DNA from: Candidatus Altimarinota bacterium
GTDB lineage: Bacteria; Patescibacteriota; Gracilibacteria; BD1-5; UBA6164
Direction of reading: 5' to 3'
Length of the DNA: 64,000 nucleotides
Assembly: GCA_028688895.1 (NCBI GenBank)
Contig: JAQTXG010000001.1
Span: 62,001 to 126,000 of the forward strand
How positions within the stretch are numbered: position 1 is the stretch's first letter; the number at the start of each line of letters is the position of its first letter. This document shows, one piece after another, positions 3,201-33,532 of this stretch. A model generated the notes under the pieces. It did not search any database, was not told where the DNA came from, and was given only the letters and a program-made list of their open reading frames with translations. The position numbers and the translations under genes are program-made.

Positions 3201-3274
3201 TAGTGTAGTATTAACACTAAAATCTTTTGACAAAGAAAAAAATAAAAATACAATTATAGTGTTCAAAAGACACT
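3201..3274 (+). promoter_or_regulatory. Promoter with two AGTGT-N7-ACACT operators
   Basis: The -35 box is TTGACA (3227-3232) and the -10 box TACAAT (3249-3254) with a 16-base spacer. Perfect palindromes flank it: TAGTGT-N7-ACACTA at 3201-3219 just upstream, and AGTGT-N7-ACACT at 3258-3274 over the likely start site. The string ATCTTTTGACAAA recurs before pncA (about 14084) and nadE (about 16499), and both promoters carry the same palindrome. The placement suggests repression by a dimeric regulator. The NrtR-like protein at 33556-34209 is the obvious candidate, by inference. Confidence 0.75.
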
Positions 3275-3309
3275 GTTCTTTAACATAAACCGAACTTAGG
3301 AGAATAGAA

Positions 3310-4182
3310 ATGAAAGATACATTTGAAATAGCGTTTGGCTCTATAGTTGGAACCGATCACACGAAAGTATTTAAAAATAATCAGGATGCATACGCATATA
3401 AGCAAGGAAGCAATTATATTGTAGCTTGCGTAGCAGACGGTTGTAGTGCAGGTATTTTTAGCGAATTTGGAGCTAGGTTTGCAGTCAATTTTTTTGTGAA
3501 TTCTGTGAGTAATATCTTGCAGTCACTTTCAGATAAAGAACTTGATTGTCTAGCCGAAAAAGAATATGTTTCATTTCCATTTTTCGATAAAATACGCCTA
3601 GATATGCTATCTTCGATTCGAGTTTTGGCTAATTCTATGGGCAATGATTTGAACAAAATCATCAGTGATTTTTTTTTATTTACATTAGTTGCAGTACTTA
3701 TCACTCCTTTTGGAACAGATATTGTATCCATAGGTGACGGTTACGCAGCCATAAACGGTGAAGAGTTTGATATAGATATTCCTGTCAGTCAGGACTCTAG
3801 TCTAATGAACGCTCCACCATATATGGTTTACAACCTAGTCCACTCAAAACTATATGAAAAAGAAAACAAATCACTAAATTTTCGCTTAATAAAAGGTGTA
3901 AAAACAACACAACTAGATTCACTATTAATTGCTACTGACGGAGTATCAAAATGGAGTGAAATACAAGACTTAAACATTCCAGCAAAGTCAGAATTAGTAG
4001 GTCCATTATCTCAGTTTTGGACTGATGATAAGTATTTTTCAAACCAAGATTTGCTCAGGCGAAAATTATTTTTGATGAACAATCCAAAAATAAGACTAGA
4101 CCGAGAAAACGATTGTATACAAAAATACTCAGGTTTACTAAACGACGACACCACAATTATAGCAATTCGCAGGAAAACATAG
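3310..4182 (+). CDS. PP2C-family protein phosphatase (YegK/TerY-P triad type)
   Basis: 290 residues with the metal-binding motifs of PP2C phosphatases in order: NQDAYA (D26), VADGCSAG (D43, G44), IGDGYA (D143), ATDGVSKW (D210) and NDDTT (D279, D280). It should remove phosphate from Ser/Thr residues using two Mn/Mg ions. It is the first gene of a run with a kinase, a nicotinamidase-like fusion and a VWA protein. That matches the phosphatase of the YegK-YegI-YegL / TerY-P group, which probably reverses the kinase. The start is fixed by TAGGAG 9 bases upstream. Glycine is always GGN and the stop is TAG, unlike host-dialect neighbours. Two palindromic operators precede it. Confidence 0.9.
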   Translation: MKDTFEIAFGSIVGTDHTKVFKNNQDAYAYKQGSNYIVACVADGCSAGIFSEFGARFAVNFFVNSVSNILQSLSDKELDCLAEKEYVSFPFFDKIRLDMLSSIRVLANSMGNDLNKIISDFFLFTLVAVLITPFGTDIVSIGDGYAAINGEEFDIDIPVSQDSSLMNAPPYMVYNLVHSKLYEKENKSLNFRLIKGVKTTQLDSLLIATDGVSKWSEIQDLNIPAKSELVGPLSQFWTDDKYFSNQDLLRRKLFLMNNPKIRLDRENDCIQKYSGLLNDDTTIIAIRRKT

Positions 4183-4256
4183 AAAACTCTATCCTGAATA
4201 CTTTCTATTATTTAAGGAAGGGACTACAGAATTTTTTTAAGCCTCCCTCTAGAGGT

Positions 4257-4290
4257 ATTTATGCCCGAAGGGAGGTATCCTGTGGACAAG
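4257..4290 (+). repeat. 34-bp repeat, inverted copy at 8253-8286
   Basis: ATTTATGCCCG, one variable base, then AGGGAGGTATCCTGTGGAC plus AAG. The reverse complement recurs at 8253-8286 with one mismatch, so the pair brackets the kinase and nicotinamidase-like genes. Upstream, GCCTCCCTC can fold back on GGGAGG to form a hairpin in the phosphatase-kinase spacer. The downstream leader (4285-4320) is also similar to the leader of the VWA gene. Confidence 0.7.
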
Positions 4291-4320
4291 TGAGAGTTTA
4301 AAAAATATGGAGAAAAAATC

Positions 4321-6189
4321 ATGTTAGTAAAAATAAACAACATTGCTGTAAATATTGATCCTACAAAATCAATAGGCAAGGGAGGTGAAGCTGATATTTA
4401 CAATTTGGGTTCCGGTAAAGCATTGAAATTATTCAAAACCGTTGACCATCCAGATGTAAAAGGTTCACCATTAGAAGAACTATCGGCAAAAAATCGTTTG
4501 AAAGAACATCAAAGCAAATTACCTAGTTTTCCTACAGGATTACCTGCAAATGTCATTACTCCAATTGATTTAGCATATGACAAAACAGGGAAAAAGATAG
4601 TAGGATATACTATGAATCTGGTTGATAATGCTTCTGTTTTGTATTCATTCTCACAAAGAATGTTTAGACAAGGCATTTCAAACAACGAGATTACTCAGAT
4701 TTTCCTGAAACTTTTTTCTACTGTAAATACATTGCATAAAAATGGTATTGTAATAGGTGATTTCAATGATTTGAATGTCCTTGTAAATGGACAAAATCCA
4801 TATATTATCGATTCTGACAGTTTCCAATTTGGACATTTTTTGGCCCGTAGTTTCACTCAAGATTTTACTGATCCATTAAATGCAAATCCAAATTCTACTG
4901 CAGTTGAACTTATAAAACCATTCAATCATTTTTCTGATTGGTATGCTTTTGCAGTACTATTATTTCAAAGTTATTTATTCGTAAAACCTTATGGAGGTAG
5001 TTACAAACCAAAAGACCAAAACAATCGAGTCTCACATACAAAAAGGCCGTTAGAAAGAATCACTGTTTTTGATGATGAAGTGAAATATCCAGTCAAACAA
5101 GCTTTGCATTATTCTCATTTGAGTCCTGATTTATTGGATTATTTTTACCAGATTTTCAAATCTGATTTGAGAGAAGTATTTGATAAAAAAATGCTTGAAA
5201 ACATAGAATGGAAAACATGTAAAAAATGCGGTTTGGAGCATGCAACATATGCGTGTCCTAGCTGTGTAGGAATAGTTCCAGGACATGTTGTACAGACTAT
5301 TGTGATAAAAGGCAACTTGAAAGCAAGCAAAGTATTTAATACAAAAGGATTTATAGTTTATTCAAAAGTCGAATCAGGTGTTTTGAAATATATCTATCAC
5401 TCAAATGGTGCATATTATCGTGAAAACGGTGAAAAAATCATTGATGGAGAAATAGACAATCAGATCAGATTTAGGATAAATTCTAGAAATACTTTGTTGT
5501 CCAAAAAAGGTATTTTAGTCACTATCAAAAATACTCAAATCATCGATAAGGTAGCAGTTGGTAGCTGTGGAATATTACCAGTATTTGATTCAAACTCTTT
5601 AAACAGATTTTGGATTTCGGCTGAAAATATCTACAAACAAGGTACATTAGGACCGGAACCAATTGGTAAAATACTTTCAAAACAAACTGTGTTTTGGGTA
5701 GGTGAAAAACTAGGATTTGGATTTTATAGAGCAGGTGATTTAAATGTTGGTTTTATCTTTGATACTTCCAAACACGCAATTCTCGACTCCATAGATTTCC
5801 CAATAATCCCAGGAAAACTCCTAGATGTGACTTGTTATATATCTGATAAACTGATTTGGTTTTTCGCAAGCTTCATGCAAAACGGAAACAAAACTAACAG
5901 ATGCATAGTCTATGACAAACAAGGCAAAATACAAGCGACAAAAGAAGAAATATCTAGCGTCGACTCTTGGCTTACTTCCATTCGTGGTAAAACAGTTTAC
6001 GGAGATTTTTTGATGTCTGCAACAGACAGTGGTATAGTCCAACTTAAAGTTGAAAACTCACAAATCATCGTAAAAAATTCCTACCCAGATACTGCCTCCT
6101 ACGTAGATGATGAAAGTATTATTCATCTCTCAAATGAGGGAATTTATGTAGTAGACTACAAAGAAATAACATTGTTGCAATTACATTAA
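4321..6189 (+). CDS. Ser/Thr kinase with zinc ribbon and beta-rich tail (YegI-like)
   Basis: 622 residues. The kinase fold covers about 1-290: glycine loop GKGGEA (19-24), lysine K36, catalytic GDFNDLN (D147, N152) and DSDSFQ (D163) in place of DFG, as in the YegI/TerY-P kinase family. A four-cysteine zinc ribbon follows (C300-x2-C303, C312-x2-C315). The remaining 300 residues are beta-rich and propeller-like, with no family recognised. It probably phosphorylates partners in the operon, opposed by the PP2C upstream. GGAGAAAAAATC precedes the ATG. There is no in-frame TGA in 622 codons, and the stop is TAA. The target is unknown. Confidence 0.88.
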   Translation: MLVKINNIAVNIDPTKSIGKGGEADIYNLGSGKALKLFKTVDHPDVKGSPLEELSAKNRLKEHQSKLPSFPTGLPANVITPIDLAYDKTGKKIVGYTMNLVDNASVLYSFSQRMFRQGISNNEITQIFLKLFSTVNTLHKNGIVIGDFNDLNVLVNGQNPYIIDSDSFQFGHFLARSFTQDFTDPLNANPNSTAVELIKPFNHFSDWYAFAVLLFQSYLFVKPYGGSYKPKDQNNRVSHTKRPLERITVFDDEVKYPVKQALHYSHLSPDLLDYFYQIFKSDLREVFDKKMLENIEWKTCKKCGLEHATYACPSCVGIVPGHVVQTIVIKGNLKASKVFNTKGFIVYSKVESGVLKYIYHSNGAYYRENGEKIIDGEIDNQIRFRINSRNTLLSKKGILVTIKNTQIIDKVAVGSCGILPVFDSNSLNRFWISAENIYKQGTLGPEPIGKILSKQTVFWVGEKLGFGFYRAGDLNVGFIFDTSKHAILDSIDFPIIPGKLLDVTCYISDKLIWFFASFMQNGNKTNRCIVYDKQGKIQATKEEISSVDSWLTSIRGKTVYGDFLMSATDSGIVQLKVENSQIIVKNSYPDTASYVDDESIIHLSNEGIYVVDYKEITLLQLH

Positions 6190-6229
6190 TCAACAGTATT
6201 AAATAATTCTTATTAAAAAGATGGGGGTT

Positions 6230-6334
6230 TTAGGGGGGAGGACTGAGATGAGCCGCATGTAGAAACATCAAAACATGCCAGTTGGAACTTCTCCCCCCTA
6301 ACAGTTTTGCCATACTTTTGCTGTCAAAAGTATG
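6230..6334. repeat. Stacked inverted repeats in the kinase to nicotinamidase-like spacer
   Basis: TTAGGGGGGAG (6230-6240) pairs perfectly with CTCCCCCCTAA (6291-6301), enclosing a smaller CATGT/ACATG stem. Next comes CATACTTTTG-CTGT-CAAAAGTATG (6311-6334), a perfect 10-bp hairpin without a T run. The rest of the 259-base spacer is an A/C-rich, T-poor leader ending in AGGTGA before the next ATG. It could be an mRNA processing or attenuation site or a short mobile repeat. Confidence 0.6.
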
Positions 6335-6448
6335 AAAGAACCATACCACACTACAAACTAAAAATCACAACAACCCAAAAATCTTAACACAAACTTATTA
6401 ACAAAAACAACTTTAAATTAATCAAAAATCCAAAACAGGTGAAATAAA

Positions 6449-8179
6449 ATGAAACCAAACAACTACAAAAACGCATTCTTAAATTCACAAAAACAAAGCG
6501 TATCTGGCTTGTGTGGGCGGATTATCCGAGGCGTACAGGACAAAGACTTCCTGTCACTGACCGATGATCCAAACCGCAAACTGGTTATGCTGATGGGACC
6601 TGACGGACTACAATCCATCTTGGGTAAAAACGGCCTTGAATCATTGGTACAAATCGGCTACGAAGCTGACTACATCAATCACAAAGTCAATGTTGAAAAC
6701 AACAAATTCAAACTGATTGTCTTCAAAGAAGGTGCTCAAGCCAGGATTGCCACTTGGGACAATGTCATAGACATTGCGTCAAGTGTATACCCAAGCATTG
6801 CACTGAAATTGCAAGCTCAAAAAAATGGTTTGAAACAATCAAGTTTTTCAGAAATCGAGTCTCAATCAGGCTTCAAGTTCAGTGAAGTAGACAAAGTCGG
6901 TGTTTCTGATTCACGATTTATGAATTTGGAACGTTTAGAAAAATCTATTGGAACTCTATCTGAAGTCAGAGCTTTTTTGTACTTTAGTGTTTATCTGAAA
7001 GAATTATTTTCTGGAGACGGCTATACTTATAGCTTCGACGGCAAAAAAGGACTTCAAGAATACATAGTTCCAAATATGTCAATCTCAGATCTGGACTCAT
7101 CAATAGTCATCGATCTGGAAATCAAATTACCACAACAAAACAAGGTGAATATCATGTCAAAAAAACAATTGAACATCCCAGCAATTTACGATGAATCAAA
7201 AGTTGATCAAATCCGTAGAATTGCATACAACGATATTGCTCAAAAAGCCAGACAGTGGGCAAAAGATAATGCTATCAAACCAGCAGCCAGCGACAAAGTA
7301 AAAGTTGCTGTGTTGGGTATTGATATGCAAAACACATTTTGCACTCCTGGTGGTGAACTTTTTGTACAAGGCGCAGTAGAAGACTCCAAACGGTTCGTAG
7401 AGTTTATCTACCGCAACATGAACTACATCTCTAAACTGGCAATGACATTGGACACACATACTGCCGAACAAATCTTTCATGAAGAATTTTTTGTGAACGA
7501 TGACGGCGAACACCCAGCTCCAATGACTATGATCTCTATCAAAGACATCGAAGATGGTATCTGGAAAGTGTGTCCCAGTGTAGCTGCAAACATCGCAAAT
7601 GGCAATTACATCGCTGTACAAAACCATGTTATGCACTATGTCAAAGAACTGAAATCAAAAGGTCGTTATGACTTGTTGATTTGGCCATATCACGCTATTT
7701 TGGGTGGTGTTGGTCACGCTTTGGTTCCAGCTATCGAAGAAGCTTGCTTTTTCTATGACCGTGCTAGAAACAACCAAACCAAGTTTGAAGTAAAAGGTGG
7801 AAATCCTTTGACTGAAAACTATTCAGTGTTTGGTGCTGAAGTCTTGACCACAAGCGGTGGCAAACCTATTGCACAAAAAAACACCAGTTTTATCAAATTG
7901 CTTTTGGACTATGATTATGTAGTCATCGGTGGTCAAGCAAAAAGTCACTGTGTGGCTTGGACTATCGAAGATTTACTGACTGAAATCCAAGCAAGAGACC
8001 CTAAACTGGCAAAAAAAGTTTACTTATTGGAGGATTGTACATCTCCAGTTGTAGTTCCAGGTATAGTTGATTATACCGATGAAGCAAACGAAGCATTCAA
8101 AAAATTTGAAAAAGCAGGTATGCACATCGTAAAATCTACTGATGCAATCGAAAACTGGCCAGGAATTATCCTGGACTAA
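6449..8179 (+). CDS. Unknown domain fused to nicotinamidase/isochorismatase-like hydrolase
   Basis: 576 residues. The N-terminal part (1 to about 228) has no family I recognise, but its paralogue is the free-standing protein at 12584-13234. The C-terminal part (about 280-576) is an isochorismatase-fold cysteine hydrolase: D292 in GIDMQNTFC, a TLDTH metal-site motif, YHAILGG, and catalytic C501 in QAKSHCVAWTIEDL. It probably cleaves nicotinamide or a related amide, but is larger and divergent from pncA at 14354. AGGTGA sets the start. A second GGTG and ATG at about 7143-7156 lies at the domain junction, as if two genes fused. Glycine is always GGN and the stop is TAA. It sits between the kinase and VWA genes. 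Confidence 0.82.
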   Translation: MKPNNYKNAFLNSQKQSVSGLCGRIIRGVQDKDFLSLTDDPNRKLVMLMGPDGLQSILGKNGLESLVQIGYEADYINHKVNVENNKFKLIVFKEGAQARIATWDNVIDIASSVYPSIALKLQAQKNGLKQSSFSEIESQSGFKFSEVDKVGVSDSRFMNLERLEKSIGTLSEVRAFLYFSVYLKELFSGDGYTYSFDGKKGLQEYIVPNMSISDLDSSIVIDLEIKLPQQNKVNIMSKKQLNIPAIYDESKVDQIRRIAYNDIAQKARQWAKDNAIKPAASDKVKVAVLGIDMQNTFCTPGGELFVQGAVEDSKRFVEFIYRNMNYISKLAMTLDTHTAEQIFHEEFFVNDDGEHPAPMTMISIKDIEDGIWKVCPSVAANIANGNYIAVQNHVMHYVKELKSKGRYDLLIWPYHAILGGVGHALVPAIEEACFFYDRARNNQTKFEVKGGNPLTENYSVFGAEVLTTSGGKPIAQKNTSFIKLLLDYDYVVIGGQAKSHCVAWTIEDLLTEIQARDPKLAKKVYLLEDCTSPVVVPGIVDYTDEANEAFKKFEKAGMHIVKSTDAIENWPGIILD

Positions 8180-8252
8180 AACTTTATTTTTTTGCATTAC
8201 TATAAGTGTAAAAAATACGTTAAATAATCCACCCTTGTAAAATTACCAATCC

Positions 8253-8400
8253 TTGTCCACAGGATACCTCCCTACGGGCATAAATTCCTTCCATTAAGTC
8301 TAATGAAGGAGGCTACAATCAATTTAATGTAGCCTCTTTCCAGCTTTAGCGGGATAGAATTTATCCGAAGGGACAAGAGAGAGGTTAAAAAATCAATTAG
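8253..8400. repeat. Inverted copy of the 34-bp repeat plus further palindromes
   Basis: 8253-8286 is the reverse complement of 4257-4290 with one mismatch. It is followed by AAGGAGGCTACA / TGTAGCCTCTTT pairing (about 8305-8340) and GAATTTATCCGAAGGGACAAG (split as GAATTTATCC and GAAGGGACAAG). The last is a partial direct copy that leads into the VWA gene's ribosome-binding site. A weak operator-like AGTGT-N7-ACGTT lies upstream near 8205. Confidence 0.65.
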
Positions 8401-8410
8401 GAGAAATATC

Positions 8411-9208
8411 ATGTCAAACACAACAGTAAATGATTTGTTTGGTTCTGCAGCGGATGAAGGTTTGTTATCACAAGACTCTCAATCAGCGATTGAATTTGCC
8501 GACATCGGCGAAGAAATCAATGCAGCACTAGGCATAAACGCAGACGATTTTGGTTCCAGTGAGGTAGTTCTAGTAACTATGCTCATCGATGATTCAGGAT
8601 CGATTCAGGGTAGTAACAACGTAGATGTAGTTATAAATGGCCACAACTTGGTCATCGAATCTCTACAATCCACAAAACAAGCACAAAGCGACTCTATTTT
8701 GGCACATACACGTTACCTAAATGGCAAAGTATTATTTCCTTATCAGTCTATAAATCAGGCTGTTAAAATGGACCATAGTAACTACAACCATTTCGGAGGT
8801 ACACCTCTATATGACCAATCTGCAGTTGTTTTGGCTACTGTCATTGCCAAATGTCAGGAATTTTCTGACAACGGTATTGCTTGTCGAAGTGTTACATTGA
8901 TTGTAACCGATGGCGCTGATTGTCACTCTAACAAGTTTAGAACAGCAAAAAGCATTTCGCCATTGGTTCGCGACTTGTTGAGACAAGAAAACCATATCGT
9001 TGCTGCAATGGGTATTGACGACGGTGGTTATACCGATTTCAATTCAGTATTCACAGAAATGGGGATTCCAGATTCATGGATTCTAACCCCAGCAAACACT
9101 GACTCAGAAATCCGTGCCGCTTTCAATATGTTTTCCCAATCTGCAACCCAGGCTTCTCAAAGCGCTCAAGCATTTAGCCAAGCTGCTATGGGAGGTTTTG
9201 GAAATTAA
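8411..9208 (+). CDS. Von Willebrand factor A protein (YegL/TerY-like)
   Basis: 265 residues with a complete MIDAS metal site: DDSGSI near residue 60, GGTPLYD near 129, and VTDGADCHS near 164. This is the pattern of TerY/YegL-type cytosolic VWA proteins. The last 30 residues are low complexity, rich in Ser, Gln and Ala. In TerY-P triads the VWA protein works with the PP2C phosphatase and kinase, probably as their target or scaffold. Here those two are upstream in the same run. AGGAG 8 bases before the ATG fixes the start. Glycine is always GGN and the stop is TAA. Confidence 0.85.
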   Translation: MSNTTVNDLFGSAADEGLLSQDSQSAIEFADIGEEINAALGINADDFGSSEVVLVTMLIDDSGSIQGSNNVDVVINGHNLVIESLQSTKQAQSDSILAHTRYLNGKVLFPYQSINQAVKMDHSNYNHFGGTPLYDQSAVVLATVIAKCQEFSDNGIACRSVTLIVTDGADCHSNKFRTAKSISPLVRDLLRQENHIVAAMGIDDGGYTDFNSVFTEMGIPDSWILTPANTDSEIRAAFNMFSQSATQASQSAQAFSQAAMGGFGN

Positions 9209-9502
9209 GCCCTAACCAATCAGGGCAACAGACCACCCACTACCCCCCTCCTTACTAAGGAGGGGAAACTAAAACAAAAAACAAAACAAAAAACAAAACA
9301 AAATAAAACAAAAACAAATTTCAACAAACAAAAAAAGGAGAAATAAAAACCCTCGTAAGCTATATGCTTACGGGGGGATTTGTCGTAGGAAAATACTATT
9401 TAAAAAATCAGTAAAATATAAAAAACAAAATTTTTTCTAGAAGTGAATTTTGCAAAGTTCCATATAATATTTAATCACGGCTTTTTCCTAGTCTATAAAA
9501 TT
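9209..9502. other. Non-coding tail of the triad operon, with an orphan ribosome-binding site
   Basis: It starts with a CCCTAACC/CAGGG hairpin and a CCCCTCCTTACTAAGGAGGGG palindrome (split CCCCTCC and GGAGGGG). Next is a long A/C-rich leader like the one before 6449, ending in AAAAAGGAGAAATAAAA at about 9334. No ORF follows; instead there is a CGTAAGC/GCTTACG hairpin. A downstream gene may have been lost. The 15-mer TTTTTTCTAGAAGTG, seen also at 21578 and 51856, is at 9431-9445. Confidence 0.5.
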
Positions 9503-11665
9503 TTACAAATTTTCATATCTCAAATTTCATGTTTCTTGATTACCATCTCAGTATTTTTCTATTGCAGGATCTATGAAATCCTTGTTGTGAATTTTTGTAG
9601 GCGATACTGAACAAGTTCTTTCCAATAACCATTCGTAAGATACATTTCAATCATTATCAAGTCTTGCATTTTCTGATGATTTTGCTCATATATCAACCAA
9701 TATTTCATACGCTGCTTTTGCTATATATTCAGCTGTTCTATACTCTGGTGCCACTATTTGAGAAGTTTGTTTATCTACTCTATCAAAAAATCAATGTTGC
9801 AATTTATGACGAACATATGCTAATGGACTAAATCAAGTATTTGTTGTATCTATTATATCAGTATGTCATAAAGCATCTGTAAAAGGTATTTCATAATGCA
9901 CAGTTTGTCACTCTAAATCTTGAATTCATTGACTTATTACATCTTTTAAAAATGGTTTTCAGTCTTCATGAGTTATTTCAAAAAGTATAATTTTTTTCAA
10001 TTTTTTCATTTCTTTCTCTTCTATTGAGTCAGACTTTTTTATTTTTATTCTTTCTAAGTATTCACTTGAAAATAGGGCAGATTCTTCCATAATATCTTCT
10101 TTGTCTATACCTGTTATTTTTGCGTATTTTTCATCAGCTTCAGACATTCTGTATGAATGATCTATATCATGCATGAAAAATTCTTCAGGAGACTGATCAA
10201 ACTCATCTACATAGATAAATTCGTCAGATAAACCAATAAATCTAATAGAGCTACATCTCACTTTCATCAAATCAGTAGCTCATAAATGCTCATATGTAGG
10301 TATAGCTATTTCATCAGGTATCTTATTCAAAAAATCATTTAAGTGATATTCATATTTTTTCATATGAAATGAAGCATATTTAATCATTTCTTTATTCATT
10401 TTTCATTCAGTATTTGCAACAGCATAATAACCGATTTTTTCTCTAGCAATCAAATCAACAAAAGAAATATATTTCAAAATAGCTTTTACAGTAGGTAAAT
10501 ATGGACAGAAATTTCTATTTTTGAAGCTCACATGTTCCAGAGAATTATAAACTTTTTCTCTTAGTCAGAATAATATATTATTTTTTGAACACAATTCATT
10601 TATCTCTTCACTTTTCAATTTGTCTTTCATTCTTTCAAGTATAGGGAAAAATTCTGGAAAAGATGTATTTAAATCATTATTATTTTCTTTAAAACGTTGT
10701 TTTAATGACTTCTGATATTCTAGAGGATTGTCTATTATATTTCTGATCCAAGTTTTGTGAGAAAAGTTTCTTTCCTTTTCTATTGAGGTTTTACCAGATA
10801 AAAATGCTACTATATTTCTATGATGACTAAAAGTAAGTCATCCATTTTCATTTTCCAAATCCATGATTTCAGATTTTTTTATCCATATGTTTCAATTATC
10901 TGGTATATTTCATTCTAGCTCCATGCTGTATCAAATAGTATCAACCAAATGACGAGGATCACTAGGTTTTGTTATTTGATTTAGTTTATCTTTATATATA
11001 TACCCAGAACTATCTTCTGCATACAATTTTATTTTTGTACTTTTGTCCTTGTTTGCTACAAAATAATAAAATTTATCATTTTCTCATTGAGCTTTTCAAT
11101 AAATCAAATCTTTGTCTTGGATAATTTTTTCTCCTGCTATTCTCAGTGCAGCAAATATATGAGTTTCAAGTCATAGTTCATTATCTTCATCATCATCTCT
11201 GATTATACCACCTGGCAAAGCATTTCATTCAGGAAAATATTTTCTTTCATTACAAAGTATATGTTTAACTCAATTTTCATCAGTCTTTGATATTACTAAA
11301 TCGACCGTAGGCTTTGAAGTCAGATAATTTAATACATAATTTCTAGATGCTTCCTTCAATTTTTCATTATGTATCAATCTATCTATTAAATCCTTTTTAT
11401 CCTGGTTATTTGAAAAATATTCTATTAATCAATTATATATCTTGGTTTGTAGATTTTTATTTCTAATTGCTCTATGATACCAATAAATCATATAATACAA
11501 ACTAGTAAGAAATACTTCTCTTCATATATTGCTATTTATAAAATCATATTCATTTCATACTAGTTGATTTATAGCATCATTTACATCTTGTTCTACTTTT
11601 TCTATACTATTTAGTACTTTTTGAGTATCCTTTATATCTATATTTTCTATACTATTTTCTATCAT
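9503..11665 (-). CDS. Large unknown protein, possibly with a Nudix-like segment
   Basis: 720 residues in code 25, with many TGA glycines, starting at the only ATG after upstream stops and ending in TAA. No family is recognised with confidence. About 180 residues in, NALPGGIIRDDDED then GLETHIFAALRIAGE loosely recalls a Nudix box but lacks the REXXEE core. A later part has FFMHDIDHSYRM, a His/Asp-rich stretch that could bind metal. There is no signal peptide or membrane helix. It is the only host-dialect gene between the triad operon and the TGA-free group at 11879-13985. It has no clear terminator. Confidence 0.7.
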
Positions 11666-11878
11666 TTTTTTTATTAAAATATCTAAAGTATTCAGTATTT
11701 TCTAAAGAATATTATTTTATAACCTAGAAATATACTTAATTATAATAATAATATAATAAATAAAATATATAAAAAGTCAATAAAATACTTGATTAATAAA
11801 ATTTATCTATATAATCTAACAGAAGGTAAAAAAACCTTCATTAAACTATCGTCATTATTTAAAAAAAGGGGAAAACTG

Positions 11879-12463
11879 ATGACAAGAAGAATTATTGATA
11901 AAGAACTACTAGAAAGAGTGTTTTTGATAACATTATCTGCACTTCTATTATTTGTAATTTCAAGTTACCTTACAAGTGGCTTTGAAAAATCTACAACATA
12001 CAAAATCGTCGCTACGATATTTTGTATAGCATTAGTTTATGGAATGAAGTATTCAATAAAAATGTATGATGGAACTGAAATATTGCTATCTATCGGATTC
12101 TTAAGTTTATTTGGTTCATTATTTGGCTCTATTTTGGAGTTGCTTGGCATGAATGATGCAAGTGAAGTAATATTAGCATCAAGCATTATTTTGGTAATAA
12201 CTTTCTTTTATCTATCTTACTATACTAGTATTACATCAAAAAAGATTGATTTTTTTTCAATGTACATGGCTAGTATTACTATTAATGTGATTCTAGGTTT
12301 TGTGTATTTTTACTTTGTAAATATTGAGGTAGCTCAGATATTTACAGCACTTATAGTTGTTTTTTTATTTATCGCTTATGTTTTCTACAAGACAGATAAA
12401 TTAATAAAAAATGATTATAGGGATCCTTATAAAATCTGCTTTAAATTGTTTTTCAATATTTAA
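11879..12463 (+). CDS. Six-helix integral membrane protein
   Basis: 194 residues with six predicted membrane helices and short loops. The shape recalls the Bax inhibitor-1/YccA group or small permeases, but no motif decides this. I choose ATG 11879 over an ATG 90 bases upstream because AAAGGGGAAAACTG gives a good ribosome-binding site, and a GAAGG-A7-CCTTC-like hairpin (about 11822-11839) lies in the leader. There are no in-frame TGA codons, and the stop is TAA followed by a hairpin terminator. It precedes the free-standing copy of the unknown domain, which has its own promoter. Confidence 0.72.
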   Translation: MTRRIIDKELLERVFLITLSALLLFVISSYLTSGFEKSTTYKIVATIFCIALVYGMKYSIKMYDGTEILLSIGFLSLFGSLFGSILELLGMNDASEVILASSIILVITFFYLSYYTSITSKKIDFFSMYMASITINVILGFVYFYFVNIEVAQIFTALIVVFLFIAYVFYKTDKLIKNDYRDPYKICFKLFFNI

Positions 12464-12482
12464 AGTCAGATATCTAAAATAA

Positions 12483-12515
12483 AAACCCATCTGGAAACAG
12501 AAGGGTTTAATTTTT
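12483..12515 (+). terminator. Terminator with GAAA tetraloop
   Basis: AAACCC-A-TCTG-GAAA-CAGA-A-GGGTTT followed by AATTTTT. It separates the membrane-protein gene from the promoter of the next gene. Confidence 0.85.
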
Positions 12516-12520
12516 ACATA

Positions 12521-12554
12521 TTGACATTTTATAAAATTGTGTATTATATACAAA
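12521..12554 (+). promoter_or_regulatory. Promoter with a degenerate AGTGT-N7-ACACT operator
   Basis: TTGACA (12521-12526) with TATTAT (12542-12547) or TATATA (12545-12550). Over the -10 lies TGTGT-N7-ACAAA (12538-12554), the same spacing as the perfect operators but with three mismatches. It precedes the paralogue of the N-terminal domain of the 6449 protein, which strengthens the regulon idea, but the site is weak on its own. Confidence 0.5.
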
Positions 12555-12583
12555 CTTTGTATAAAATCGTTGAGGTAAAGCTC

Positions 12584-13234
12584 ATGAATATAGATGAATA
12601 TGTAACTTGTTTTAAAAATAAACAAGAAATCACAGATTTGAATGCTTACAATGCTAGAATATTGAGAGGAAAAAAAGATAGTGATTTCCAGACTTTGTCA
12701 GATGATAAAAATAGGAAATTGGTTTTTGTAATGGATGATGAAGGATTGCAAAAAATAGTAGGAAACTCTACATATGAAATGCTCATAAAAACAGGATATC
12801 ATCCAAATTATATAGAACAACTTTTTGCTGAAAAAACAATTTTCAAACTGATTATTTTTCCAAAAATAAACCCAAAAATGTTAGCTACATGGGACAATGT
12901 ATTAGATATGGTAGTGATGCTATATCCAGATACAATAAATCAAGTAACTGACTACATAGAACAGTTAAAAGAAACCAGATTTGAAGAAATAGAAAAATTA
13001 TCAGGACACAGATTTGCAGATATAAGCAAGAATTATTTTAAAAATGCAGCTAGTTTAAAAGGCTTAGCAGAGTTTAGATTTTTTCTGTACCACTCAATTT
13101 ATCTCAGAGAATATTACCAAGGAGATGGATTTACAAAGAATTACAAAGGAGAAAAAATATTTAGAGAATATGTGGTTTTTAACACACAAATAAGATATTT
13201 GAGTGATTATAGAATCATAGATTTAGAGATATGA
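12584..13234 (+). CDS. Free-standing copy of the 6449-protein N-terminal domain; ends in UGA
   Basis: 216 residues aligned along their whole length with residues 1-228 of the 6449-8179 protein. Shared features are RILRGKKDSDFQTL vs RIIRGVQDKDFLSL, DDKNRKLVFVM vs DDPNRKLVMLM, ATWDNVLDM vs ATWDNVIDI, and the end IDLEI. The function is unknown. GAGG lies 9 bases before the chosen ATG; an upstream ATG-less frame is excluded because the promoter starts at 12521. The stop is TGA, 1 base before a terminator hairpin. If read as glycine it adds 23 residues, to TAG at 13303, through the hairpin. This fits descent from a standard-code genome. Confidence 0.78.
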   Translation: MNIDEYVTCFKNKQEITDLNAYNARILRGKKDSDFQTLSDDKNRKLVFVMDDEGLQKIVGNSTYEMLIKTGYHPNYIEQLFAEKTIFKLIIFPKINPKMLATWDNVLDMVVMLYPDTINQVTDYIEQLKETRFEEIEKLSGHRFADISKNYFKNAASLKGLAEFRFFLYHSIYLREYYQGDGFTKNYKGEKIFREYVVFNTQIRYLSDYRIIDLEI

Positions 13235-13235
13235 A

Positions 13236-13268
13236 AAGAGCCATATGCAATAAGCATATGGCTCTTTT
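13236..13268. terminator. Shared bidirectional terminator
   Basis: AAAAGAGCCATATGC-AATAA-GCATATGGCTCTTTT (stem of about 15 bp) between convergent genes 12584-13234 and 13284-13985. Both genes end in TGA just outside it. Confidence 0.9.
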
Positions 13269-13283
13269 ACAATCACAAATTTT

Positions 13284-13985
13284 TCACCCAGTTTTGCTCA
13301 TAGCTAACCATTGAGTAAGAGTTTGTAGTTCTTCAATTGGCTTTGATTGTACATTTGCAAGTTTTGCGATACTTTTAGATCCCATGGATAACAAGTACGT
13401 CATATAATTGTTAAAGACCAACTCATCCAATACAAAAATATTATCCGAATGTTCTTCAAAAATATAACCACCATTTGGCAAAGGAGTCTGAGATAATACA
13501 ACTGAATAATGTTCTTTTACAATAGATTCTTCAGTAGAATACATGAGGCCGATATTGTATCCTTTGCCTGAAAAACCATTTATCATAACCACAAGTACTT
13601 TTTTATCTCCACTTTTGGATGAATTAAAAAGCCCTATCAAGTCACTGATAAATCTATAACCAGGTATTTTGGACAAAATGAATTCTAAGCTATTTTTAAA
13701 CCAACTACCTATTCTAGTCTCTATAAAGTGACCAACGATATACGAAGCCAATACCAATATAAATATTCCAACCAAAGTCCACAAAATAGGGTAATGAATA
13801 GGAATAATTCCCATAATATGGAAAAGCTTTCCAGCTACAATATCAGCCTTACCATACAACCAAAGAACTATCATTGCCATAGCAGCAATCGGTGCCAACC
13901 AAAACAAACCTGAAATACTTGCTCTAACAAAGTGATTTACACCACCATCAAAGTATTTTTTCAAAGTAGTCAGTAAATTTTTCAT
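13284..13985 (-). CDS. DUF502-family membrane protein; ends in UGA
   Basis: 233 residues. Two membrane helices (about 24-46 and 66-90) follow GLFWLAPIAAM, then HFIETRIGSW, KIPGYRFISDL and a soluble part with MINGFSGKGYNIG and PLPNGGYIF. The pattern matches DUF502 proteins, whose function is unknown. Upstream is AAGGAG 5 bases before the ATG. No internal TGA is used, but the stop is TGA. If it were glycine the protein would gain 35 residues across the terminator and end at TAA 13179. It is convergent with the gene on the left. Confidence 0.82.
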   Translation of the reverse strand: MKNLLTTLKKYFDGGVNHFVRASISGLFWLAPIAAMAMIVLWLYGKADIVAGKLFHIMGIIPIHYPILWTLVGIFILVLASYIVGHFIETRIGSWFKNSLEFILSKIPGYRFISDLIGLFNSSKSGDKKVLVVMINGFSGKGYNIGLMYSTEESIVKEHYSVVLSQTPLPNGGYIFEEHSDNIFVLDELVFNNYMTYLLSMGSKSIAKLANVQSKPIEELQTLTQWLAMSKTG

Positions 13986-14353
13986 GATTTCTCCTTTTGA
14001 ATTGTATATTTTGGATAAATATACTTTATACCTTATACATAAAATTACACAAAAAGCAATAACAAATTATTATTTTCTAAAAATCTTTTGACAAATATAA
14101 AATTATTATTATAGTGTCTATATAACACTCATATATAAATAATAAAAACAGTATTAAAGGGGAATCAAAAACTCAATCTAGACTGTAAAATTTATTTATA
14201 TTATAGATATGTTATATATTTTTTTAAAAACTATAAAGTGTAAATATTACAGTATTAATTATAAAATAATATAAATAATATTGACTAATAATAAAAATAT
14301 TTTATAGTATAAGAAATATTCTCAAAAGTATATTATATATTAATCAAAATATT
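13986..14353 (+). promoter_or_regulatory. pncA regulatory region: two promoters and two operators
   Basis: TTGACA (14088-14093) is followed after 16 bases by TATAGT (14110-14115), with a perfect operator AGTGT-N7-ACACT at 14113-14129. A second copy, AGTGT-N7-ACAGT, is at 14237-14253. A second promoter nearer the gene has TTGACT (14281-14286) and TATAGT (14303-14308) with a 16-base spacer. ATCTTTTGACAAA is shared with the promoters at 3222 and 16499. No gene is seen in these 368 bases. Confidence 0.72.
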
Positions 14354-15115
14354 ATGAGAAATAAAGAAAAGGAAGCAGTCATAATAGTTGACTATCAAAA
14401 AGGTTTTGCAGATAAACAAGTGAACGAATTATATGTAAATGGTTGAGAAACATTGGCTCCAATTATAAATGAAGTCACTAGAGAAGTTAAATCAAAATGA
14501 TGAATCATACTAGCATCAAAAGATATGCACAGATTATGAAATGTATCATTTGCACAAAATTTCAAATGAAAAGTAGCACTTACAGATGCATTAAAAGCTT
14601 GAAAAACACCAGGACCTGAGAATTTTATTACATTAAGTGAAGTAGAACACTGGACAGAAGAAAGCAATTGATTGGAAGATTCAGCATGATTTACAGTATC
14701 AGAATTGAAAGCATATTTAAGTACTCAAAAAAACTATACTATGGCTTTATGGCCAGCACACTGTGTAGTAAATACTCCAGGATCAGAATACCAAGATGGA
14801 CTTGATAAAAGCTTGATAGATATAGAAATCATCAAATGATACCAAAACAATACACATCCATATAGTGCATATCCATGAATAGAACTTTGAACTAAGAGGG
14901 AAGTAATCGATGTACTTGATGAAGAATGAATCATAAAAGTAAAAGTTACATGACTAGCCGCTGATTGGTGCGCTTGAGATACTGCTATAGATATAGCTAA
15001 AGTATGAAGATTTGTAGTAGAATTTATAAAAAAAGCATCAAAAGCAGTTACTCCAGCAGACGAGGTAGAATACTTGATGAATATGAGAAATTCTTGAGTA
15101 ATAATCGTTGAATAA
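14354..15115 (+). CDS. pncA: Nicotinamidase
   Basis: 253 residues in code 25. It hydrolyses nicotinamide to nicotinate, the first step of the salvage route completed by the next genes. IVDYQKGF carries catalytic D13. KDMH follows near the metal site, WPAHCV lies at about 138-143, and the catalytic cysteine is C206 in GLAADWCAGDTAID. Numerous TGA codons fall on expected glycines (LAADWCAG, HPYSAYPG). There is no Shine-Dalgarno sequence. It is first in the run pncA-pncB, 30 bases apart, under the operator-bearing promoter. It belongs to the same superfamily as the C-terminal half of the 6449 protein but is clearly a separate, standard-length enzyme. Confidence 0.92.
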
Positions 15116-15145
15116 TAACAAATTTTAAATATTAATAAAAAAACT

Positions 15146-16495
15146 ATGAAGTCAAATCTATTGTATAGACCATCAGATGTATTTTCTGTAGCCAGAGATG
15201 AAGTTGAAGTAGATAATTTACTAAACAATGATATCTATAAATTCTTAATGTTAGATTTTATACTTGCACAAGATGAGTACAAAGATGTAAATGTTAGATG
15301 GAAAATGAAAATCCGTAATGATAATATACGTATTGCAGATGTAATTCCTTTGGAAGCATTAAAAGAACAATTTGATGCAACAGCTCAAATAAAGTGAGTA
15401 AGTCAAGCCGATATATCTTTTCTGAGATGAATGCAAAGACCTGATGGGAAACAACTTTTTAGAGAAGAAACTCTAAAATTTCTACAAGAATTCAGATTAC
15501 CAGAGTATAGTATTACAAAAGACAATGAATGAGGTTATGATTTAGAATTTGTTTGACCATGGAAAGCATCACTTATGTGGGAAGTATTATGATTAAAAAT
15601 AGTAAACACACTATATCTATATCACTATGGAAAAAAAGAAAAAATCTCAAATGTAGAATTTGATGAAATAATTAATCAGACAATAAGGAGATTATATGAT
15701 GATGTAAAAATTTATAAAAATCATCCAGGTATTACTCTTTCTGAGTTTGGAACAAGAAGAAGTGCTAGTACAGATATACAAAGAATGGTAAATGAAATAT
15801 TAAATGAAAAATTACCATGACAATATATGGGGACAAGTAATGTAATGATAGCAAGAGAAATGTGAAATGCTAACCCAAAAGGTACAAATGCACATGAACT
15901 AAGAATGATACCAACAGCATTAGAAGATGATCCACAAAGAATTATTGATGTTATGTATGATGTAGATAGAAAATGGTGAAAGCATTTCCCAGGACTAAGT
16001 ATATTATTACCAGATACATATGGAACCAGTTTCTATTTCAAAAATTGTCCCGAAGATATAGCTATGACTCATAATGGTAATAGATTTGATTCAAAAGACC
16101 CAAATATTTGAATACCAGAATATGAAAGATTTCTACAAAAATTTTGACTTGATCCAAAAACTCATTTGAGAATTCCAAGTGATTGACTTAATTCAAAAAT
16201 TGTTGTTGATATTTATGAAAGAAATAAACATTATTGACCAATTACATTCTGAAAGTGAACGCATTTAACAAACAATACAAAATGAACATGGCCTAGAGAA
16301 GTTGAACCACATGGACCATTTGGATCTATGTCAGTAGTAGTAAAACCATACGAAGTACAAAGACCTGATTGATCATGGGTAAAATGTGTAAAATTATCAG
16401 ACAACCCAGATAAAGGTATGTGAGAAGAAAGATTACCATTATTTAAAAGAACATTTTGAACAGAATGATTCCAAAGACAAGATGTTTTAGTTTAA
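15146..16495 (+). CDS. pncB: Nicotinate phosphoribosyltransferase
   Basis: 449 residues. It joins nicotinate and PRPP to give nicotinate mononucleotide. The family signature EFGTRRSAS is present, followed by GTSNVMIAREM, a catalytic-histidine context in NPKGTNAHELRM, and the PRPP-site stretch GLNSKIVVDIYE then ITFGKGTHLTN. Length fits the family. Many glycines are TGA. The stop TAA at 16493-16495 lies 7 bases before the -35 box of nadE, so the nadE promoter begins right at the gene end. Confidence 0.92.
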
Positions 16496-16502
16496 AAATC
16501 TT

Positions 16503-16639
16503 TTGACAAAATAATCTAAATCAATAATATATGTGTATAAGATACACTAAAAATAATATTTAGCTCTATGTATTGATTTGTTTTATCAAAAATACAGGGA
16601 GCTAAAAAATAAAAAATTATTAAGTGTATAAACTACACA
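16503..16639 (+). promoter_or_regulatory. nadE promoter with two operators
   Basis: TTGACA (16503-16508), a 16-base spacer, and TAATAT (16525-16530). Operator 1 is TGTGT-N7-ACACT (16532-16548), in which GTGTAT-AAG-ATACAC is a perfect palindrome. Operator 2 is AGTGT-N7-ACACA (16623-16639), 20 bases before the ATG. Between them TAGCTCTATGTA / ACAGGGAGCTAAA can form an imperfect leader hairpin. Confidence 0.72.
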
Positions 16640-16659: not shown

Positions 16660-18486
16660 ATGAACACAAATGCTATAAATCTATGACAAGTACAAGTAGA
16701 AGCTGGTAGACCAGATTTAAACATGGAAAAAGTTATAGAACAAATTAAAAACACTCCTAGATGATGAATACTGATTTTACCTGAAATGGTAATTCCAGGT
16801 TATATGATCTGAGATGATTGGTTGTATGAATCATATATAAAACACTGTAGAGACTTCAATGATGAGATTATTAGACTATCTGGAGAATATTGAATTACAA
16901 TAGTATGGTGAAATATAGCATTCGATGAATCAAAGAAAAACGAAGACTGAAGTATTAGGAAGTACAATGGAGCATACATAGCAAGTAACTGAAAACTATT
17001 AAAAACTCAATACAAAACTCTACTACCAAACTATAGAATGTTTGATGATAAGAGATATTTTCATAGCTTAAAAGATTTGGTTGTTGAAGAAAACTTAGAT
17101 AACAAAGATGAAAGTATCAGAGAAAAATTAGAAGAAGAATACAAACCAGTAGAAGTATTTATAGACTGAGTAAAAACTAAAGTATCTCTACTTATCTGTG
17201 AAGATATATGGAATATAAACGATGATTATGCAGTTGATCCAGTTGAAATGACAAAGAAATATTCACCTGATTTGATAGCAGTAGTATCAGCTTCACCATT
17301 TGGTTTAGAAAAAGCTAAATTTAGAGACAAATTACTTAAAATAGTTAGTGAAGATACTACTATTGCTTATGTAAATCCTATCTGAATTCAAAACAATGGT
17401 AAAAATGTATTTAATTTTGATTGAGGTTCTAGTATTTACAGAGATTGAGAATTTATCAGGTGAGTTAAAAATTATACTGAAAATAAAAATGACTTAGAAA
17501 CTACTATTACTGAATTGAAACACCTAGAAGAACCAGAACAAATTTTTGATGCTCTTATATATGTTATAAAAGAATTCTGGAAACAAAACTGATGGGAAAA
17601 AGCTATGATATGATTGAGTTGATGAATCGATTCTTGACTAGTTTCTACTTTGCTAACTATTGCATTGTGAAAAGAAAACATCACTGCTATAAATATGCCT
17701 AGTAAGTTTAACTGAGAAACAACTAAATCATTAGCTCATACTCTAGCAAATAATTTATGAATAGACTACAAAATATCTCCAATGGATAGAATGGTAGAAG
17801 CACAAGTACAAGATTATTTAGATTTAGTATGAGAAATGCCTAGTAGTTTTGAGATGGAAAATATTTATGCAAGAGCTAGAGGTGGTAAATTATCAAATCT
17901 AGTAGCAAAATTTTGACCATATACCAACAACTGAAACAAAGACGAAGTACTTACATGATATGCAACACTTTACGGTGATGTTAATGGAGTACTAGCAATT
18001 ATTTGAGACTTACATAAGACTCAAGTTTGGGATTTATGTAGATGGATAAATGATAATGTAGAAAAAGTAATGCCAAGTTCAAAATTAGAAGAAATTATTC
18101 CAAATGAAATGATAGAAATGAAACCAGCAGCAGAATTATCAGATGAACAAAACGTAGATAACGGTTGAGGAGATCCTTTTGATTACAATTTCTTATCAGC
18201 GATTGAAATGGCATATTATAACAAAAAACAAACTATTTTTGATATAATAAGTAAAATATCAGACGACACATTAGAAAATTATTTATGATTAGAAAAATGA
18301 TACTTGGATAAATTATTTGATACAAAAGAAAAAAGTATAGAAGAAGCAAAAAGGATATGGAGACTAAAAACCATTAGTTATTTCAAAAGAGTTCAATGTC
18401 CACCAGTAATAACTATTTCTAGATCTAGTCCATGATTTGATCACAGAGAATCTCAAAATAAACCATATTTTTGGGGAGAAAACTAA
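16660..18486 (+). CDS. nadE: Glutamine-dependent NAD+ synthetase
   Basis: 608 residues. The N-terminal nitrilase-fold glutaminase has LPEMVIPGY (Glu), KTLLPNYRMFDD (Lys) and C180 in LLICEDIW. The C-terminal synthetase has the ATP-binding S320-GGID-S325 loop, in which both glycines are TGA, then GDVNGVLAIIGDLHKTQVW and CPPVITISRSSPGFDHRE. It amidates nicotinate adenine dinucleotide to NAD+ with ammonia from glutamine. Length is typical of the two-domain type. There is no Shine-Dalgarno sequence. The stop TAA precedes a hairpin terminator shared with the convergent gene. Confidence 0.95.
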
Positions 18487-18944: not shown

Positions 18945-19853
18945 ATGAAAACAATTATTACACATCCAAATTTTGATTATCTATGAGAACAAATAGTTAG
19001 AGATAACAGAGGTAAAATATCAAAAGCACAAGTAGATTTTGAAGCTTTTGAAGATGGTTGGCCAAATATATTCGTAGAAAAAGTAAAAGAATTAATAGAA
19101 CATAATGATGTCACATATATCTGAGATTTTTCCAAACCAAAAGACTTGTTTATAAATTATGCACTTATAAACTGAATACTTGATTATTATGCTGACAAAG
19201 TAAGAGTTATTATGCCTTATTTTCCAGTATGAACTATGGAGAGAATAGATGAAAAATGACAAGTAGCTACAGCTAAATACTTCGCTGATATCATGAGCAA
19301 TTTACCAAGTGGTAGGATGTGAAAAACGAGTATACATGTTTTTGATATACATGCACTACAAGAGAGATTTTATTTTGATAGCAAAAATGTAAATGCTGAG
19401 ATGCACACAGCTATGAATTTACTAGACGAAATAGTTAAGTGAAAAATAATTGTATTTCCAGATGACTGAGCAAAAAAGAGATTTTGAAAAGACTTCCCGG
19501 AAAACGAAACTCTATCATTTTCAAAAATCAGAAAAGGTGATTCTAGAGTATTAACTTTGAACTGATGAGATGTAGATTGAAAAGATGTTTTATTAATAGA
19601 TGACCTAATACAAACTTGAAATACTATTATAGAAGCGACAAAAATACTGAGAGAAAAGTGAGCAAAATCTGTCACAGCATTTGCTACTCATGGTGTATTT
19701 CCAAATTGATCAGTAAAAAAACTATCCAAAGAAGTAGACAAATTGATAGTATCAGACTCTATACCAAAAAATATTTCTAGAGCAGAAAAAATAAAAAATA
19801 TGGAAATAATAAGTCTAAAATCAGATATAGAAAAACTTATATTTAATTGATAA
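18945..19853 (+). CDS. prs: Ribose-phosphate pyrophosphokinase family protein
   Basis: 302 residues. The PRPP-binding loop LLIDDLIQTGNTIIEA is near residue 220, with MPYFPVGTMER and VFDIHALQERFYF as the ATP- and ribose-5-phosphate-side motifs. It makes PRPP, the co-substrate of pncB, which explains its place among NAD genes. It is divergent from E. coli Prs but has the right order of motifs. Many TGA glycines and no Shine-Dalgarno sequence. nadD starts 4 bases after its TAA, so prs-nadD-nudix form one operon. Confidence 0.85.
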
Positions 19854-19857
19854 TTTT

Positions 19858-20457
19858 ATGGAAAACATAGCGATATACTGATGAAGTTTCAATCCACCTA
19901 CTTTATGACATATACAAGTAGTTAAGTGAGTTTTAGAACACACAGATATAAAAAAAATAATTGTAGCACCATCATGAGATAGACTAGACAAATCTCATAA
20001 TATAGAACACAATAATAGAAAAAAATTGATAGAAATATTTATAAAAGTACTAAAAGAATCATGAGTAAATGTAGATTTGGATTTATATTTCTTTGAATGA
20101 AAAAACAATGGAATAACTACTACATTGCAAGAAGAAAAATATTTCAAACAAAAACTATGACTAGAACCTACTTTTATCTATTGATCAGATGTAGTAACAC
20201 ATATGCACAATTGGGTTTGAAACGATAATAAGTACATAGAAAAAAAATTAAAAAAGATTTTTATAAATAGACCAGGTTATGAATTCAAACCACAAAATTA
20301 TTCACTAGATAATTACATATTATTAGACATTCCTGAACTTATCCAAGTTTCTAGTAGTGTAGCCAGAGAAATGATAAAAAATAAACAAAGTGTAGCAGAT
20401 ATATTGAATCCAGAAATAGTCAAAGAGATAATAAATAACAATTTATATACTAAATAA
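19858..20457 (+). CDS. nadD: Nicotinate-nucleotide adenylyltransferase
   Basis: 199 residues. The opening IYGGSFNPPTLGH, with TGA for each glycine, is the nucleotidyltransferase GSFNP-x4-H signature. VSSSVAREMIKN near residue 164 is the ISSS-x2-R ATP motif. It adds AMP to nicotinate mononucleotide to give deamido-NAD, the substrate of nadE. The gene is 4 bases after prs and 6 before the Nudix gene. The motif YGSDVVTHMHNW fits the substrate site of NadD-type enzymes. Confidence 0.9.
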
Positions 20458-33515: not shown

Positions 33516-33532
33516 ATTGTATATAATACACA
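33516..33532 (+). promoter_or_regulatory. Possible autoregulatory operator of the NrtR-like gene
   Basis: ATTGT-N7-ACACA, two mismatches from AGTGT-N7-ACACT, inside a TGTAT-ATA-ATACA palindrome 24 bases before the ATG. It supports self-control but is too degenerate to stand alone. Confidence 0.4.

Follow-up and report, generated by a model that had tools for sequence, protein, structure and literature searches.

A predicted NrtR-family regulon joining NAD salvage genes to a TerY-P-type phosphatase-kinase operon in code-25 Patescibacteria

The locus and its palindromic sites

The window—the whole 64,000-nucleotide stretch of DNA analysed here—carries a PP2C-kinase-nicotinamidase-vWA operon, a set of NAD salvage genes and a predicted regulator gene, nrtR (Table 1). 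A first-pass annotation had placed the palindrome AGTGT-N7-ACACT, perfect or with one mismatch, six times in the promoters of the PP2C operon, pncA and nadE; every coordinate and mismatch class proved exact, as did the sharing of ATCTTTTGACAAA among the three promoters. The spacing of the paired sites differs by promoter (56 bp for the PP2C operon, 124 bp for pncA and 91 bp for nadE), a variation that counts against their being operators of one regulator. When the window was scored with a weight matrix built from 42 foreign sites, all six fell within the top seven. Two weaker copies had also been proposed. The one upstream of nrtR ranks eighth with the foreign matrix and, because sites also precede nrtR in relatives, is a plausible weak autoregulatory operator. 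The other, at 12538, has three mismatches and ranks 13th, indistinguishable from background, and we rejected it as an operator.

Table 1. Genes, predicted operators and promoter elements in the window
Feature	Position	Strand	Evidence or remark
Predicted operator AGTGTAGTATTAACACT	3202..3218		perfect; 5' of the PP2C-operon -35
-35-like element ATCTTTTGACAAA, PP2C operon promoter	3222..3234	+	sequence
Predicted operator AGTGTTCAAAAGACACT	3258..3274		perfect; covers expected -10/start region (PP2C operon)
PP2C-type protein phosphatase	3310..4182	+	PF13672 3.6e-18; metal-site aspartates conserved
Ser/Thr protein kinase with zinc ribbon CKKC...CPSC (TerY-P type)	4321..6189	+	Pkinase 2e-6, under Pfam cut-off; catalytic residues and zinc ribbon
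Fusion: N-terminal unknown-fold domain (~1-230), C-terminal predicted nicotinamidase (~236-576)	6449..8179	+	catalytic D, D-x-H, K, C invariant
vWA (TerY-like) protein, MIDAS motif DDSGS	8411..9208	+	motif; orthologues 50-58% beside PP2C/kinase
Claimed weak copy TGTGTATTATATACAAA	12538..12554		three mismatches; operator status unsupported
-35-like element ATCTTTTGACAAA, pncA promoter	14083..14095	+	sequence
Predicted operator AGTGTCTATATAACACT	14113..14129		perfect; pncA promoter
Predicted operator AGTGTAAATATTACAGT	14237..14253		one mismatch; within pncA leader
pncA, nicotinamidase (code 25)	14354..15115	+	PF00857 8e-10; PRK11609 1.7e-21
pncB, nicotinate phosphoribosyltransferase	15146..16495	+	PF04095 5e-19
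-35-like element ATCTTTTGACAAA, nadE promoter	16498..16510	+	sequence
Predicted operator TGTGTATAAGATACACT	16532..16548		one mismatch, exact core GTGT-N7-ACAC; nadE promoter
Predicted operator AGTGTATAAACTACACA	16623..16639		one mismatch, exact core GTGT-N7-ACAC; nadE promoter
nadE, NAD synthase with amidohydrolase domain	16660..18486	+	PF02540 4.6e-37
prs, ribose-phosphate pyrophosphokinase	18945..19853	+	PF14572 4.4e-15
nadD, nicotinate mononucleotide adenylyltransferase	19858..20457	+	PF01467 1.7e-9; NAD-cluster synteny in relatives
Nudix hydrolase, ADP-ribose pyrophosphatase-like	20464..21033	+	PF00293 6e-10; TIGR00052 1.6e-9, under cut-off
Probable weak autoregulatory operator ATTGTATATAATACACA	33516..33532		two mismatches; ~24 bp 5' of nrtR
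nrtR, Nudix sensor domain and NrtR winged helix, predicted repressor	33556..34209	+	NrtR_WHD 5.7e-23; helix DKRNFRKK

What does the PP2C operon encode? Its vWA protein has the MIDAS pattern DxSxS...T...D (DDSGS at 60, T131, D167), its phosphatase matches PF13672, and its kinase keeps the kinase residues and a C-terminal zinc ribbon (CKKC...CPSC at 300-315), the three components of the TerY-P triad (Anantharaman 2012) in the definition that PMC11090510 quotes. The ribbon is missing from the kinase of genome G020 and from both phage kinases checked. The third gene carries a predicted nicotinamidase domain with intact catalytic residues: a profile from which the PncA of the window was left out hits nicotinamidases of solved structure (2h0r, 2.3e-13), and D57, D100, H102, K214 and C266 are invariant in 15 homologues and that PncA. 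The operon is thus tied to NAD more closely than the first-pass annotation supposed. The fusion's N-terminal domain is absent from the orthologues found; a search for phage or viral relatives of this domain or of the free-standing paralogue at 12521 found none, and structure prediction for the two sequences was unusable (pLDDT 47.5). Rfam revealed no known RNA in window positions 1-36000 or the Absconditabacteria loci, and PADLOC gave weak matches only.

Distribution of the palindrome across genomes

Is the palindrome confined to these promoters? In the whole 1.8-Mb genome, AGTGT-N7-ACACT occurs only three times, always in the promoters of the PP2C operon and pncA, rather than in the random scatter that would have counted against the first-pass proposal. 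The core GTGT-N7-ACAC occurs eight times (six for a reversed-pattern control): five copies lie within the PP2C-operon, pncA and nadE promoters, one, overlooked previously, is inside the PP2C gene itself (at 3895), and two are elsewhere in the genome with no recognisable gene downstream. The probability of at least five cores in the three promoters (750 bp in total, 0.0025 expected) is ~8e-16 for a motif that was chosen from the window region itself; the independent test is therefore other genomes, and the motif passed it. When up to two mismatches are allowed, the number of sites is about what chance would give (35 observed vs. 31 expected), and we dropped such sites as an operator class.

Across 59 related genomes we counted 66 perfect sites, of which ~30 are NAD-linked; the other 36 approximate the number given by the reversed-pattern control. 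Within 300 bp 5' of NAD or PP2C-operon genes there are 23 sites where 0.03 are expected, and control patterns score zero. AGTGT-N7-ACACT thus again precedes NAD genes in related code-25 bacteria. The four operons located outside the class (G518, G391, G452 and Parcubacteria L106), by protein similarity alone, all have a perfect site just upstream; in L106 it stands 5' of nrtR, itself the operon's first gene. NrtR was found in each of the 10 operon-bearing genomes tested. A site also precedes nrtR in G452 and in six of six Absconditabacteria, where the PP2C operon is followed by pncA and usually nadE, and in most relatives nrtR lies inside the site-bearing NAD cluster. Together, the nicotinamidase domain, the four out-of-class sites and the constant presence of NrtR support assigning the PP2C operon to a predicted NrtR regulon, and the single regulon suggested earlier for this operon and NAD salvage gains from the recurrence of sites before orthologous operons and NAD genes alike.

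The predicted regulator and its recognition helix

Which protein would read the palindrome? The only NrtR_WHD protein in the genome, encoded at 33556, combines a Nudix domain (PF00293, 3e-10) with an NrtR winged helix (PF21906, 5.7e-23), each above cut-off, and palindromic sites are conserved 5' of NAD genes, as in the family. Its Nudix signature is impaired (GGFIGINELCIDAAHRILFEASS), having lost the REUXEE part of GX5EX7REUXEEXGU. By domains it classifies as an NrtR family member, but not as the NtrR equivalog of NCBIfam, where it scores 168 of 400 bits, below cut-off. As far as PMC4666351 and PMC6800001 relay them, the regulons in which NrtR governs NAD metabolism (Rodionov 2008) likewise have a Nudix plus winged-helix regulator with a broken Nudix signature and palindromic operators 5' of nad/pnc genes, to which our relatives add apparent autoregulation; here, the host is a code-25 member of the Patescibacteria, a phosphatase/kinase operon is included, and both operator and helix are AraR-like. 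Among the papers searched, none mentions NrtR alongside Patescibacteria or Candidate Phyla Radiation; the prediction would extend NrtR control to code-25 Patescibacteria.

The closest solved match is BtAraR of Bacteroides thetaiotaomicron (6e-41; PDB 5BS6, 5DD4, 5DDG, 5DEQ), ahead of SoNrtR (2e-30). The BtAraR co-crystal DNA includes AGTGT-TACTTTT-ACACC, in which Lys179, part of helix D178-K-R-N-F-R-K, touches GTGT at its first G (PMC4666351). All the DNA-contact residues DKRNFRK recur in the window helix, and the operator, AGTGT-N7-ACAC, is the same. However, BtAraR governs arabinose genes (PMC4666351), and Arg34 and Phe36, with which it contacts arabinose, correspond to Met and Lys in the window protein, which is predicted to read DNA like AraR, yet is not filed as AraR. 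In Absconditabacteria the NrtR helix is DVRNF (6/6) and the operator TTGT-N7-ACAA, found 5' of nrtR (6/6) and also of the PP2C operon, pncA or nadE. This G-to-T change falls on the base touched by the helix Lys, which points to NrtR as the reader of the palindrome and makes for a sharp prediction about specificity, in which Lys would recognise G and Val would recognise T. The Lys-to-Val/G-to-T correspondence represents one evolutionary event only. The match to BtAraR contacts, the code-25 recurrence and the Absconditabacteria change identify the probable regulator as NrtR.

We consider it very probable, from comparative sequence evidence, that the palindromes are operators of this NrtR-family repressor and that it jointly controls NAD salvage and the PP2C operon until released by an effector. 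NrtR dimers would bind AGTGT-N7-ACACT over or beside TTGACA promoters of the PP2C-kinase-nicotinamidase-vWA operon, pncA-pncB and nadE-prs-nadD-Nudix, and probably, weakly, of nrtR itself. As NAD is consumed, the Nudix domain would bind an effector, presumably ADP-ribose or a related NAD product, and NrtR would let go; nicotinamide recycling would then rise along with a TerY-P-type phospho-switch bearing its own nicotinamidase. Kinase, phosphatase and vWA protein may in turn control the nicotinamidase or the response to NAD loss. Such an arrangement would tie transcription of a TerY-P-type operon, a class without a known trigger, to NAD status. The first-pass choice of the 33556 protein as binder fares well given the BtAraR match and its co-presence with the operon; the ADP-ribose or NAD that it proposed as effector is no more than a candidate, for most of the residues quoted in PMC4666351 as touching ADP-ribose in SoNrtR are lost here (Arg41, Asn43 and Lys76, with Arg98 replaced by Lys).

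Could the same sites serve an AraR-like family member that senses a pentose or other sugar instead of an NAD metabolite? The better match to BtAraR, with its operator and contact residues, speaks for this reading, but the altered arabinose contacts do not, and in 17 order relatives the site-linked genes are NAD genes, with no sugar operon seen in the site-bearing loci; we regard it as unlikely. Less likely still is that another DNA-binding protein (e.g., NiaR-, NadQ- or Rex-like) reads the palindrome and NrtR merely co-occurs. One relative (G012, a 91% complete genome) has a site before pncA and no NrtR was found in it, and several NrtR-positive relatives are without a perfect site, as such a binder would allow; NrtR is favoured by the agreement of residues and operator with the BtAraR co-crystal, by the parallel change in Absconditabacteria and by the position of nrtR within site-bearing NAD clusters. 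Chance or low-complexity AT-rich repeats would account for the two-mismatch counts and for the other one-mismatch sites checked, mostly inside genes or beside terminators. For the strong sites the comparative test contradicts this explanation, which we judge extremely improbable: they are confined to these promoters and recur before distant operons, and control patterns are zero in NAD loci.

The four-gene module in viral loci and known systems

Of 80 viral loci, 64 hold the whole module of PP2C, kinase, nicotinamidase and vWA genes, which often adjoins nadE or pncB. The same loci hold just three perfect sites, about the chance level, and general use of the operator by phages was rejected; in L190/L191, AGTGTTATAAGTACACT lies ~40 bp 5' of the nicotinamidase ORF. 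We tentatively propose, as a possibility short of an even chance, that the TerY-P triad plus nicotinamidase forms a previously undescribed module for rebuilding or safeguarding NAD when an attack has depleted it. In bacteria, NrtR control would let NAD breakdown switch the module on; in large phages, where nadE or pncB often accompanies it, it would act as a counter-defence to the NADases of the host. Many contigs of large phages hold the module together with NAD salvage genes, which suggests phospho-controlled nicotinamide deamidation as a means of NAD recovery, a testable counterpart of known NAD-rebuilding phage pathways.

Like the TerY-P triad as PMC11090510 outlines it, the window operon unites a MIDAS vWA protein, PP2C and a Ser/Thr kinase with C-terminal zinc ribbon; relative to that outline, it differs in the nicotinamidase as constant fourth member, in the predicted NrtR control and in having no adjacent restriction or Ter genes. 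Operons built around an ADP-ribosylglycohydrolase, with a Nudix or WYL regulator, a phosphatase and a vWA chaperone (PMC9503650, section 3.8), share the Nudix-type repressor over a phosphatase/vWA operon and the NAD/ADP-ribose theme, whereas here a nicotinamidase takes the place of the ADP-ribosylglycohydrolase, and PP2C and kinase replace the rhodanese-type phosphatase.

The PP2C operon is also TGA-free. Among Absconditabacteria, fourfold-site identity is near random between more distant pairs, yet the nicotinamidase gene still has no TGA; recent transfer alone is therefore insufficient as a cause. High expression may contribute, since an EF-Tu gene of RAAC1_SR1_1 is likewise without TGA.

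Predicted operator sites around the NAD genes

How is the palindrome AGTGT-N7-ACACT (the predicted operator) distributed in this 1.8-Mb genome, where TGA is read as glycine (table 25)? The first-pass annotation had assigned it to the promoters of the PP2C operon, pncA and nadE, and all of its palindrome coordinates proved correct. A genome scan returned three perfect copies, every one in these promoters, on the 192-kb contig that includes the window. The core GTGT-N7-ACAC occurs eight times genome-wide (five in the three promoters, one within the PP2C gene at 3895, and two elsewhere); the count expected across 750 bp of promoter DNA is 0.0025. In each promoter one operator begins 25–31 bp past the start of TTGACA and the second lies up- or downstream, an arrangement that would suit a repressor. 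The only NrtR_WHD gene in the genome, at 33556, encodes the predicted repressor, NrtR. Rfam has no match for an inverted repeat in the nadE leader, nor Pfam or NCBIfam for a 720-aa protein, a 58% identical fragment of which adjoins nrtR in another genome (G020, locus L160).

Features in window coordinates, or in fetched loci (L-numbers)
Feature	Location	Remark
PP2C, kinase with zinc ribbon, fusion protein, vWA protein	3310-9208	operon
N-terminal domain copies	12521-13234 and 6449-7141	40% identical
720-aa protein	9503-11665 (-)	degenerate Nudix-like stretch by eye
pncA-pncB	14354-16495	NAD block
Inverted repeat	16562-16603	between the two nadE operators
nadE-prs-nadD-Nudix	16660-21033	NAD block
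Conserved stretch, ~170 nt	L125 5946-6134, L126 6647-6836, L127 5849-6037	Absconditabacteria
Four-gene nicotinamidase-vWA-PP2C-kinase module	L184-L263 (IMG/VR contigs); L165-L168	many large viral contigs; often close to nadE or pncB

Recurrence in other genomes

The motif was originally picked from the window region, so the test is its recurrence in places where it was not picked. By our own count, 59 relatives hold 66 perfect sites: about 30 adjoin NAD genes and about 36 lie elsewhere, the latter close to the number for a reversed-pattern control. Within the fetched NAD loci, 23 of the 27 perfect sites precede an NAD or PP2C-operon gene by at most 300 bp, and two control patterns are absent. 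A single operator in G002, from the same genus, precedes one gene run with all NAD genes and nrtR (L139).

The PP2C operon belongs to the regulon in other genomes too. Four operons outside the class were located through protein similarity alone. A perfect operator stands immediately 5' of PP2C in three genomes outside the class (G518, G391, and G452); on a Parcubacteria contig (L106) it precedes nrtR, the first gene of the operon. Two perfect operators lie 5' of a nicotinamidase-vWA-PP2C-kinase version in G020, whose PP2C was recognised by position and alignment. NrtR is present in 10 of 10 operon-bearing genomes tested, compared with 27 of the 59 genomes sampled from the order. In Absconditabacteria, pncA and usually nadE lie 3' of the operon. 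There, two TTGT-N7-ACAA operators 5' of PP2C flank a conserved stretch (with GCGACGGACTG) that resembles a structured leader or small RNA and has no Rfam match.

The operator's probable reader and its effector

In the DNA complex of BtAraR, an NrtR-family regulator of Bacteroides thetaiotaomicron, the duplex includes AGTGT-TACTTTT-ACACC, read by Asp178-Lys179-Arg180-Asn181-Phe-Arg183-Lys184, with Lys179 touching the first G at N7 and O6 (PMC4666351). The window NrtR has DKRNFRKK at the aligned place. The Lys179 position is K or R in every family member examined outside Absconditabacteria; the six Absconditabacteria have Val, and TTGT-N7-ACAA precedes nrtR in 6/6. In that group the TTGT form also precedes the PP2C operon and pncA and/or nadE. 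The altered operator base is the one contacted by the altered residue. This co-change supports NrtR as the reader without proving it, because it is a single event on the tree.

Most likely, NrtR keeps the three operons repressed when NAD suffices, and NAD breakdown would yield an effector that releases them. Recycling of nicotinamide via PncA, PncB, NadD, and NadE would follow, along with production of the TerY-P-nicotinamidase module. As to what this effector may be, the window NrtR lacks the arabinose contacts as well as most of the cited ADP-ribose contacts. The non-subscription literature searched yielded no paper linking NrtR with Patescibacteria or the Candidate Phyla Radiation and no description of the module.

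Composition and viral versions of the module

The window's PP2C, zinc-ribbon kinase, and MIDAS vWA match the TerY-P triad as PMC11090510 defines it; the nicotinamidase-like hydrolase is a new constant member. Its catalytic residues are invariant across the homologues aligned, and solved nicotinamidases are matched (2.3e-13) by a profile from which the window's PncA was left out. Among the genomes searched, only this one has an N-terminal domain of unknown fold fused to it; a second copy of that domain is the free-standing gene 12521. Searches of families, phages, and viral contigs turned up no clear relatives of this domain, and its structure model was unusable. Distant nicotinamidase homologues occur on Variovorax (L169) and Vibrio (L170) plasmids, where genes close by encode Nudix, macro-domain, and NAD-kinase proteins, or RNA ligase and TerD-family proteins.

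In-frame TGA is almost absent from the operon in code-25 bacteria (the window; L125-L129, L108, and L133): it accounts for none of about 118 Gly codons in the window operon, and the nicotinamidase gene lacks it in seven genomes. The adjoining NAD genes, in contrast, are mostly TGA-rich, and the difference holds even where synonymous sites approach saturation; native nadE has 30 in-frame TGA codons. Possible reasons are that UGA decoding is avoided, that expression is high, or that transfer has recurred.

The nicotinamidase family occurs on at least 115 viral contigs, viral status being IMG/VR's assignment, and named examples are large phage records (LR756500, LR745208, and LR756511). Among the best 80 viral loci, 64 have nicotinamidase, vWA, PP2C, and kinase on the same strand (median span 4.9 kb), complete modules follow two main gene orders, and a pncB-like gene occurs in 15, a nadE-like gene in 14, and an NrtR-like regulator in 3. 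The NrtR-like protein added in L241 and L239 has a Nudix signature that looks intact.
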